From positions 1 through 43,558 of the IMG/VR virus record IMGVR_UViG_3300025093_000042: a stretch of 43,558 nucleotides of DNA, one strand, 5' to 3'. A model generated the notes under the pieces. That model saw only the letters and a program-made list of their open reading frames with translations. It was not told the origin of the DNA and ran no database searches. Position 1 is the first letter of the stretch, and every line of letters starts with the position of its first letter. The stretch comes from a virus. Shown here one piece after another: positions 10,190 to 19,025 of this stretch. The position numbers were made by a program, and so were the translations under genes.

Positions 10190-10217
10190 ACTATACTAAG
10201 CAATTTGCGTAGCGCAA
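10190..10217 (-). promoter_or_regulatory. Leftward early promoter (pL-like) enclosing an operator
   Basis: On the minus strand, -35 TTGCGC (complement of 10212-10217) and -10 TATAGT (complement of 10190-10195) are 16 bases apart. The operator 10197-10211 fills the spacer, so repressor binding would block RNA polymerase. The transcript would start about 20 bases before the first gene's ribosome site. Confidence 0.7.
10197..10211. promoter_or_regulatory. Operator OL1-like
   Basis: TAAGCAATTTGCGTA differs by one base from the perfect 15-base palindrome-like operator at 10829-10843. It lies in the spacer of the leftward promoter. Confidence 0.75.
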
Positions 10218-10226
10218 GTTAAAAAA

Positions 10227-10241
10227 TAAGCATTTTGCTTA
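10227..10241. promoter_or_regulatory. Operator OL2-like
   Basis: TAAGCATTTTGCTTA differs by one base from the 10829-10843 operator. Its centre is exactly 30 bases from that of the neighbouring operator, which would allow cooperative binding. Confidence 0.75.
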
Positions 10242-10378
10242 CCGTGTGTTTATATGCTTGAATTGTAGGGGCTGAAGCGAGTCGCACCGATAGCGGCGCA
10301 TTTCGCCAAGAAGAAACAACCTAATGGGGAAACGGGCCCGCTCAAATGGCATATCTTGTGTCTTCGCAGAACCTTAAT

Positions 10379-10393
10379 GTTCTGCTAATGTTC
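10379..10393 (+). promoter_or_regulatory. LexA box (alphaproteobacterial GTTC-N7-GTTC)
   Basis: GTTC at 10379-10382 and at 10390-10393, seven bases apart, is the direct-repeat LexA site known from Rhodobacter and relatives. It ends nine bases before the GGAG of the 56-residue gene at 10414. The strict 8-base pattern is expected roughly once per window on either strand by chance, so the position is the main support. Confidence 0.6.
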
Positions 10394-10413
10394 TCGTTAC
10401 ATGGAGATTGGAA

Positions 10414-10584
10414 GTGGACGAAAAACAGATACTTGAAATGTTAAAAGAGGCCCGCAAGAAATCGGGCTTGCCACTGGATTTTTGGGCAGATTTGACTGAG
10501 GGGCTTGATTACAATGCGATTGCAATTCTGTGTGGAAGGTCAGAAATCTTCCCAAAATACATGAACTCTAAAGGCAGGTCGTAG
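10414..10584 (+). CDS. Small LexA-controlled protein, candidate antirepressor
   Basis: 56 residues, too short to be found by usual length cut-offs. It starts at GTG 10414 with GGAG seven bases before, reading (M)DEKQILEMLKEARKKSGLP and then LDFWADLTEGLDYNAIAILC. The composition is that of a real, helical, partly amphipathic protein. The LexA box just upstream implies expression after DNA damage. The gene runs into the repressor gene tail to tail, overlapping its last 76 bases. I infer an antirepressor or induction protein, comparable in logic to Tum of phage 186; there is no sequence claim to that protein. An antisense effect on repressor mRNA is also possible. Confidence 0.6.
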   Translation: MDEKQILEMLKEARKKSGLPLDFWADLTEGLDYNAIAILCGRSEIFPKYMNSKGRS

Positions 10585-10769
10585 GTCTTGCGCAGTTTTT
10601 TGGCGGCAGAAAGGGATAGTTCCCTTTTGGCATTTTCAAACGGGCCATAGACCTGTTCGCTGAGTTCAGCGCGTTCCGCAAACTCCTTTTTGGTTAATCC
10701 CAGCACTTCGCGCACTCGCTTGAGTCGCGCGGCCACTGCCTCAATGTCATCTTCGCGTTCTTCTAACAT
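10509..10769 (-). CDS. XRE-family lysogeny repressor, short form without cleavage domain
   Basis: 86 residues. The HTH_3 domain spans about 13-70 (RLKRVREVLGLTKKEFAERA, then ELSEQVYGPFENAKREL) and the tail ends ISDLPHRIAIAL. Lambda-type repressors carry a C-terminal S24 peptidase domain for RecA-stimulated self-cleavage; this protein ends before any such domain. The gene diverges from the Cro-like gene across a three-site operator region, so it is the likely repressor. No good Shine-Dalgarno precedes the ATG, so a leaderless mRNA is possible. Its 3' end overlaps the LexA-controlled gene. Confidence 0.85.
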   Translation of the reverse strand: MLEEREDDIEAVAARLKRVREVLGLTKKEFAERAELSEQVYGPFENAKRELSLSAAKKLRKTYDLPLEFMYFGKISDLPHRIAIAL

Positions 10770-10779
10770 AGCTTGACAC

Positions 10780-10794
10780 TACCAATTTTGCTAA
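10780..10794. promoter_or_regulatory. Operator OR3-like (degenerate)
   Basis: TACCAATTTTGCTAA keeps the right half of the operator motif. It is centred 25 bases from the next site and lies just in front of the repressor gene. As the weakest site, it would suit autoregulation. Confidence 0.45.
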
Positions 10795-10804
10795 ACGGCG
10801 ACAC

Positions 10805-10819
10805 TGAGCAAAATGCGTA
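10805..10819. promoter_or_regulatory. Operator OR2-like
   Basis: TGAGCAAAATGCGTA matches the operator consensus at most positions. It is centred 24 bases from OR1 and 25 from OR3. Confidence 0.65.
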
Positions 10820-10847
10820 TTTACAAACTAAGCAATTTGCTTATTTT
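10820..10847 (+). promoter_or_regulatory. Rightward early promoter (pR-like)
   Basis: -35 TTTACA (10820-10825) and -10 TATTTT (10842-10847) are 16 bases apart, with the operator 10829-10843 across the spacer, the same geometry as the leftward promoter. Transcription would start close to the Cro-like ATG at 10855, so the mRNA may be leaderless. Confidence 0.6.
10829..10843. promoter_or_regulatory. Operator OR1-like (best site)
   Basis: TAAGCAATTTGCTTA is a perfect dyad around its central base. Four further copies or near copies flank the immunity genes. This is the site most likely to be bound first by the repressor or the Cro-like protein. Confidence 0.8.
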
Positions 10848-10854
10848 AGGTCGC

Positions 10855-11091
10855 ATGATGGATATTCGTGAATTTCTTGATGTGGTTGGCCGTGACGAAA
10901 TAACGTCTCGGTTTGGGTTTCGGGCGCAGGATGTGTCGCGGGCTGCGAAGGCCGGTGTTTTCCCATCTGGTTGGTATCCCTATATCCGCCAGCTGTGTGC
11001 AGAACGGCAGATGGACACACCTGACCACTTGTTCAGGTGGTCGAGGGTTCCTCGACAATCTGGTTCAACTTTGCAGCAAGGGGTTGCCTGA
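10855..11091 (+). CDS. Cro-like DNA-binding protein
   Basis: 78 residues from the ATG just downstream of OR1 (an ATG three bases later is equally possible). The N-terminal half is a compact HTH (EFLDVVGRDEITSRFGFRAQ, then DVSRAAKAGVFPSGWYPYIR), like short Cro/YdaS-type proteins. It diverges from the repressor and is the first rightward early gene. It should compete for the same operators and favour the lytic state. Confidence 0.8.
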   Translation: MMDIREFLDVVGRDEITSRFGFRAQDVSRAAKAGVFPSGWYPYIRQLCAERQMDTPDHLFRWSRVPRQSGSTLQQGVA

Positions 11092-11104: not shown

Positions 11105-11710
11105 TCAGAGGTGCGATTGCCAAAGCTCTTCGCTGATTATGTGCAGCGGCAGTCCACGTGTGTCGCGGTACTCTACCGCCTTTTCGATTTTCCTGCCGTA
11201 TGACGACTGCACCCACTCGTCTGATGCATATTGCCCGATTACCAAAAAAGCTGTGTCCATTCGGACGGACCCAACCTTCCCGCCACGTTCGGTCACGGCG
11301 GTTTCGCAGTCCTTGCGCGAACCATATACAAAGGTGCCCGTGAACGCGAAACGCTTTCCTTGGAATTTGACTTCCGGGTTGGGTTCGCAGAGTGGCAAGG
11401 TTGTAGACTTCAGCGCTTCGCCAATCTCGAAATCCTCTGAGCCGGTAAGTTTGGACAAAACGGCATGCAGGTCGGCGCGTTCGTTTTCGTCTACTTCGCC
11501 ATCTGCGCGTGCCTCTGCAATTCTGCGCACCAAGTCCGCGACAATCGGATTGCTGGTTATCCCTTCCGAAGCCACTAGCCACTTCTCGAGGTACTCGATC
11601 TCCGAGTCGTTCAACTGGCCATCGGCAATCAGACCACGGGCCAATCCAACCAGTTCCGTGATTTGCCGGTCGTCTAGTCGGGCGCGGTGGTATCGGGTTT
11701 GCAATGTCAT
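11105..11710 (-). CDS. BRCT-domain protein with TerB-like N-terminus
   Basis: 201 residues. The first about 85 are helical and acidic (ITELVGLARGLIADGQLNDS, DGEVDENERADLHAVL), with a repeated D-G-x-(L/V)-(N/D)-x-x-E pattern typical of TerB-like proteins. From about 110 a BRCT domain follows (FQGKRFAFTGTF, ERGGKVGSVRMDTAFLVIG, GRKIEKAVEY). The family occurs in prophages and plasmids; BRCT domains bind DNA ends or phosphoproteins. It is encoded against the surrounding early genes, so it may be a lysogeny-expressed moron with its own control at the dyad 11714-11757. Confidence 0.88.
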   Translation of the reverse strand: MTLQTRYHRARLDDRQITELVGLARGLIADGQLNDSEIEYLEKWLVASEGITSNPIVADLVRRIAEARADGEVDENERADLHAVLSKLTGSEDFEIGEALKSTTLPLCEPNPEVKFQGKRFAFTGTFVYGSRKDCETAVTERGGKVGSVRMDTAFLVIGQYASDEWVQSSYGRKIEKAVEYRDTRGLPLHIISEELWQSHL

Positions 11711-14191: not shown

Positions 14192-14472
14192 ACGCCCGTG
14201 CTGAATTCAGAACCAGACGTGCTGAAGCGAGTCGCACCGCCCTTCGGTTGGCCCCGGCGTTCCATCCCCATTGGTCATCGCGCGATGACCATGCGCTGAT
14301 GACGGCCCGCGCCAAGCGTGAGAATTTCACGGTCATTGCGAAGCGCTTGGGTCGCAGCCGGATTGCCGTTGAACAGCGCTGGCATCGCCTGCGCGTCATT
14401 CCAAATGTGGTCAAGCTGCTGGAAGCCTATGGCCTGTCGGGCAAACCCTATGCGCTGGATGGGGGGTGCTGA
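14188..14472 (+). CDS. Myb/SANT-like HTH protein
   Basis: 94 residues. About 27-70 read W-S-S-R-D-D-H-A-L..., F-T-V-I-A-K-R-L-G-R-S and then A-V-E-Q-R-W-H-R-L, the spacing of a Myb/SANT or GcrA-type helix-turn-helix with its tryptophans. AGGAGG precedes the ATG by seven bases. Bases 14221-14239 inside the gene are an exact copy of 10271-10289 next to the left operator region. Confidence 0.75.
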   Translation: MNARAEFRTRRAEASRTALRLAPAFHPHWSSRDDHALMTARAKRENFTVIAKRLGRSRIAVEQRWHRLRVIPNVVKLLEAYGLSGKPYALDGGC

Positions 14473-18919: not shown

Positions 18920-19025
18920 CCGTCCGGACGGCACGCGGTGCGGTAAGCGCCCGAGGGTTCGGTAGTCAGACGGGTTTTTGAAAGCCTTAACACATGGGGG
19001 TTCGCTTAACGCCGGGTGCTTAACA
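18920..19025. other. Candidate cos site (packaging start)
   Basis: This is the gene-free stretch directly before the small terminase gene. It holds a perfect 12-base palindrome CCGTCCGGACGG (18920-18931) as a possible cosN nicking site. Three repeats follow, CTTAACA (18986), CTTAACG (19005) and CTTAACA (19019), as possible binding sites for the terminase HTH. The arrangement cosN, then R-sites, then nu1, matches lambda. About ten perfect 12-base palindromes are expected in the window by chance, so placement carries the argument. Confidence 0.45.

Follow-up and report, generated by a model that had tools for sequence, protein, structure and literature searches.

A putative LexA-controlled antirepressor gene antisense to a short XRE repressor gene in temperate phages of Rhodobacterales

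The immunity region and its overlapping genes

The window, meaning the whole stretch of DNA that was analysed, is a virus record 43,558 bp long and comes from a temperate tailed phage, with a tRNA-Cys at one end, an integrase gene at 225-1316, and genes for helicase, terminase, portal, head protease and tape measure all present. An immunity region of lambda-like layout occupies positions 10195-11091. Two operator-like palindromes, ACTAAGCAATTTGCGTA and AATAAGCATTTTGCTTA (10195-10241), lie 5' of the leftward operon, and two more of the same repeat family (D1), ACTGAGCAAAATGCGTA and ACTAAGCAATTTGCTTA (10803-10843), lie between the repressor gene and an early gene encoding 78 aa (10855-11091, plus strand), called cro-like because of its position, its product having no family match. 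Adjoining the region, a 201-aa protein encoded at 11105-11710 on the minus strand shows weak TerB-like and BRCT-like matches and belongs to PHROG 3989, of unknown function. A 19-nt stretch upstream of the small gene described below (10271-10289) recurs exactly at 14221-14239, in the rightward early region.

The repressor gene (10509-10769, minus strand) encodes a short XRE protein of 86 aa with an HTH_3 domain (Pfam, 2.1e-8) and without a peptidase domain. Its AlphaFold2 model (pLDDT 90) consists of a bare HTH domain and a short tail, and structure comparison shows that the fold resembles C.AhdI, the N-domain of lambda cI and the 434 repressor, with additional weak NCBIfam matches to HipB- and MqsA-type models. 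A preliminary description of this DNA had held the repressor to be incapable of self-cleavage, and its length of 86 aa, with HTH as the only Pfam domain, agrees with that view. An S24 peptidase or repressor was found in none of the 24 phage records bearing the module of repressor gene and small gene (the window and 23 related records), in a search whose control genomes gave a positive signal, and no M78/ImmA-like peptidase was found in 18 such records. With no peptidase in the repressor and no S24 protein in the phage records, direct RecA-stimulated cleavage would be unavailable; a peptidase-based switch of either type was rejected, neither peptidase being found in the module-bearing records.

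On the opposite strand, a gene for 56 aa (10414-10584, plus strand), here proposed to encode an antirepressor and supported by its homologues and pN/pS, starts with GTG at 10414 and stops at 10582-10584, giving 56 codons. Direct reading places a GGAG ribosome-binding site at 10403-10406, so that the reading frame, start codon and GGAG of the preliminary description are all present. The 76-base overlap with the end of the repressor gene is likewise present, running tail to tail from 10509 to 10584 with third codon positions opposite third positions.

Because the 3' half lies opposite the repressor gene, where conservation is weak proof of coding, the 5' part alone was tested. Across 53 pairs, pN/pS in this non-overlapping part was 0.21 in the proposed frame; the two remaining sense frames gave 1.0-2.7, and the frames of the opposite strand 0.38-2.9. 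By this measure of selection, the small ORF is a genuine protein-coding gene, and the value of 0.21 bears out the expectation that the 56-residue product is conserved as a protein in related phages. The product matches no Pfam, NCBIfam or PHROGs family. A Pfam scan of 28 family members at E values up to 10 gave only one SecM chance match, a PDB sequence search with the small protein gave no match, and structure comparison of its moderately confident model (pLDDT 76) found no solved relative. The suspicion that such a gene would be overlooked by annotation holds for phage Pan4, in which the XRE gene is annotated and the copy of the small gene is not.

Homologues and pairing with the XRE gene

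A viral-contig search with the small protein returned 14 relatives at 58-80% identity, and further homologues were found in Paracoccus, Leisingera, Ruegeria, Epibacterium, Wenxinia, Pseudooceanicola and other genomes, as well as in phage Pan4. An antisense XRE gene accompanies all 37 distinct class I ORFs with the same overlap, is kept in each of the 32 non-redundant class I loci, and is present in 28 of 28 distant loci, comprising classes II and III. The class II and class I profiles match at E 3e-18, with class II and III membership resting partly on sequence opposite the repressor gene. Since the C-terminal part mirrors the repressor tail and searches with it could be biased, a profile of the non-overlapping half was used; among 391 Rhodobacterales genomes it gave 17 hits at E <1e-3, 15 of them with an antisense XRE gene, the two exceptions being a truncated copy and a 113-aa Leisingera plasmid protein. 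Homologues next to short XRE repressors in related phages were therefore found, in keeping with the preliminary description, and the pair persists when its neighbour is exchanged: other loci that share this repressor/small-gene pair have an unrelated gene in place of the cro-like one, giving two unrelated kinds of cro-like gene beside a constant pair.

Among 385 genomes of Alphaproteobacteria searched for the module elsewhere in the class, only the query's own genome was recovered. The small gene is common to many temperate phages of Rhodobacterales and is usually unannotated. Two Leisingera plasmid proteins of 111-113 aa, annotated as hypothetical (L059:2429-2770 and L060:2435-2770), share the N-terminal domain of the small protein, carry an additional C-terminal stretch and have no XRE gene opposite them or nearby. 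Phage Pan4 (L058, ON968455) has the cyanobacterium Pseudanabaena as its recorded host, and its repressor module and LexA box are of the kind seen in Rhodobacterales; an accompanying alphaproteobacterium may be the true host. In Sulfitobacter phage pCB2047-A (L134:18562-19000), a short XRE gene lies opposite a small ORF that is unannotated and belongs to another family; this ORF contains GTTC-N7-GTTC, at 18943. The phage was rejected as a module carrier on account of that other family. Bradyrhizobium phages were also rejected as carriers, having a related XRE gene but a DUF4118-type protein opposite.

The overlap measures 76 nt in classes I and III, 130-175 nt in class II and 26 nt in locus L069. 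An origin of the small gene by inverted duplication of the repressor 3' end was rejected, DNA similarity within own pairs being equal to that across pairs. A 14-nt inverted repeat (I6) in the window is not reproduced.

The pairing bears on the possibility that the small protein is an SOS-induced host effector, such as a toxin, a division inhibitor or a modulator of RecA or LexA, with the XRE protein as its antitoxin or as a bystander. LexA control and small size would fit such an effector, and XRE proteins are often antitoxins, a role to which the HipB- and MqsA-type matches would also point. The XRE gene lies, however, between two operator pairs, with a cro-like gene alongside, in what looks like a complete temperate phage, and the small protein is strictly paired with the repressor and not with other genes. 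Its lack of a toxin-family match, and of any membrane-like hydrophobic segment when the sequence is read by eye, further argues against this role, which is considered quite improbable.

The LexA-type box and the predicted convergent transcript

The LexA-type box reported ahead of the small gene, GTTC-N7-GTTC, is an exact match at 10379-10393 on the plus strand (GTTCTGCTAATGTTC). GTTCN7GTTC and GAACN7GAAC are alphaproteobacterial LexA sites (PMC3091678), and the same two forms are published in a further study (PMC6473078). The pattern occurs four times in the window, against 1.3 expected, and alone it is poor evidence; the preliminary description had already allowed for its chance occurrence, and the homologous placement carries the argument. 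An exact box lies within 110 nt upstream in 21 of the 32 non-redundant class I loci, and within 135 nt in 22, against a background of 4.1e-5 per bp (11 in 267 kb of the same loci), or about a 0.4% chance per locus. The binomial P of 8e-43 for the class I boxes assumes independence and ignores shared descent, for which a tree-based count of box changes partly corrects. At least eight changes among the states 'GTTC box', 'GAAC box' and 'none' were counted on the tree, indicating that the box, which is present in either orientation among class I loci, has been gained, turned round or lost repeatedly, and has been regained or kept by selection. An exact box is also present in 12 of the 28 loci of classes II and III.

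In most loci with the GAAC form, a TTGAC -35 element stands 23-24 nt ahead of the box and is separated by about 17 nt from a -10 element touching the box. In the window, a candidate promoter (TTCGCA, 17 nt, TAATGT; 10363-10390, plus strand) is overlapped by the LexA box and conserved with locus L003; judged by consensus, it is weak. Class I enrichment, changes on the tree and promoter geometry together indicate that the box is selected, not accidental. On the host side, GAAC-N7-GAAC lies upstream of recA in seven of the eight module-host genomes with a placeable recA start, including four hosts of boxless modules. Class I loci without an exact box (L006, L008, L019, L021, L024, L026, L028, L031, L033, L036 and L066), about one third of the class, belong mostly to one clade rich in Leisingera and Ruegeria, whose hosts' recA has the box; inspection of the boxless loci by eye revealed no convincing substitute trigger.

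LexA-controlled transcription of the small gene would be antisense to the repressor gene, and the convergent RNA could itself be the effector, stopping repressor synthesis in the manner of lambda OOP on cII. OOP overlaps 52 bases of the cII 3' end and has a LexA site in its promoter (PMC5869508), a precedent that the present locus resembles in its box and in overlapping the 3' end of a regulator gene, here by 76 nt; OOP is treated as a non-coding RNA against cII (PMC5869508, PMC2327240). A conserved intrinsic terminator 3' of the small gene was rejected, as no conserved T-run was found, and the choice of Lys codons (AAA 22 : AAG 37) is equal to the background (112 : 182). Lacking such a terminator, transcription may continue across the repressor gene, which would favour an RNA effect. 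Whereas OOP is non-coding with its own terminator, the predicted transcript here encodes a conserved protein under coding constraint, has no conserved T-run, and has the lysogeny repressor as its target. Strong amino-acid-level selection in the non-overlapping part and the retention of start codons and frame speak against RNA as the effector, as do L069, which retains the protein despite the shortness of its overlap, and the homologous domains on Leisingera plasmids without an antisense XRE gene. Halted synthesis alone would also be expected to leave a stable repressor pool. An RNA effector is accordingly rated as unlikely. The preliminary description had named the protein, the convergent transcript or both as inactivating the repressor; protein-level constraint and the 26-nt overlap of L069 favour the protein as the main effector, and the convergent transcript may contribute too.

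Likeness to the repressor tail and the proposed switch

In hhalign, the small protein matches the final long helix of the repressor and its LPLEF tail (E 3.1e-4, a short match with a probability of 39%), and the alignment of class II small proteins to class II repressors falls on the corresponding segment (E 2.6e-3, again short, probability 11%). None of 150 column shuffles scored as well for class I and none of 150 for class II; the cross-class pairing A4-A3 was not significant, with 10 of 150 shuffles as good. This resemblance suggests that the small protein may disable the repressor by mimicry.

SinI of Bacillus subtilis, 57 aa long, antagonises the XRE repressor SinR by mimicking its C-terminal oligomerisation segment. 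The phage protein would share with SinI both the role of small antagonist of an XRE repressor and the logic of mimicry, whereas the SinI and SinR genes are adjacent on the same strand and act in sporulation and biofilm control, and the present genes form an antisense phage pair. Homology to SinI was rejected, with no Pfam SinI match among 28 members and no PDB sequence match.

Being a small helical protein that resembles part of an HTH protein, the product might also be read as a co-repressor, or as a further regulator that binds DNA, helping to re-establish lysogeny and not to break it, its SOS expression serving recovery, as discussed for CTXphi RstR (PMC3121763). The alignment to the repressor falls outside the DNA-recognition helices, however, and no other path to SOS induction is evident in these phages (no S24, no M78), making a co-repressor highly improbable.

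Known LexA-controlled antirepressors include Tum of coliphage 186, AntC of N15 and GfoA/GftA of the Salmonella Gifsy prophages (PMC3121763). Their genes lie under a LexA box, as here, and the Gifsy repressor, like the present one, has no peptidase domain; derepression by binding is shown for these proteins and proposed here. Tum is 146 aa long against 56 aa for the small protein, the Gifsy antirepressor gene is distant from the immunity region whereas the gene described here is inside it and antisense to the repressor gene, and all of these systems belong to another host group with another LexA site. No match between the small protein and Tum, AntC or GfoA/GftA was found through PHROGs, Pfam or NCBIfam family models. 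The TF-smORF modules of vibriophages and Qtip of VP882 offer a further likeness, being small proteins without known homologues that inactivate a phage repressor, but their trigger is a phage transcription factor and does not depend on DNA damage (PMC10432266); the boxless clade might be nearer to this kind.

A protein under LexA control that is strictly paired with a repressor is best explained as an antirepressor, on the model of Gifsy and 186, and on the sequence evidence the small gene is likely to encode one, linking a non-cleavable repressor to the SOS response of the host. From this evidence we infer LexA binding, induction, repressor binding and the mode of binding. In the lysogen, host LexA at 10379-10393 would silence the small gene while an XRE dimer would keep the two operator pairs closed; comparative evidence lends good support to the original proposal of an antirepressor silenced by LexA. 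DNA damage very probably switches the gene on: LexA would be removed, the small protein would be made and would bind the repressor, and the repressor would leave its operators, allowing both early operons to start. The likely contact would be the last helix of the repressor and the GLxL(D/E)F segment that follows, and the small protein, resembling both, would join the repressor in a non-functional heteromer. Its transcript would run against the repressor gene and might in addition reduce the synthesis of repressor. A fuller proposal is put forward tentatively as a possible reading: a mimic of its target's last helix and GLxL(D/E)F tail, encoded antisense to the tail-encoding segment in third-position register, would act as a switch across Rhodobacterales phages, with LexA control re-wired several times.

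A LexA-controlled antirepressor for a non-cleavable repressor is an already known kind of system. The family, the antisense site in the immunity region, the possible mimicry and the LexA re-wiring were not found in the open-licence literature searched, and the first three of these seem to be new. The breadth of the family, the likeness to the repressor tail and the boxless clade go beyond what the preliminary description had foreseen. Mitomycin can induce temperate phages of Rhodobacterales despite XRE repressors without a peptidase domain, and the Sulfitobacter phage study names the induction switch as a future target (PMC7305329, PMC9044938); pCB2047-A, a phage of that study, does not carry the module. 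An antirepressor module would explain how DNA damage wakes phages whose repressor does not cleave itself, providing a concrete and cheaply testable answer for a broad set of phages. The natural series of box, reversed box and no box lends itself to studying the re-wiring of induction triggers around a constant antirepressor.
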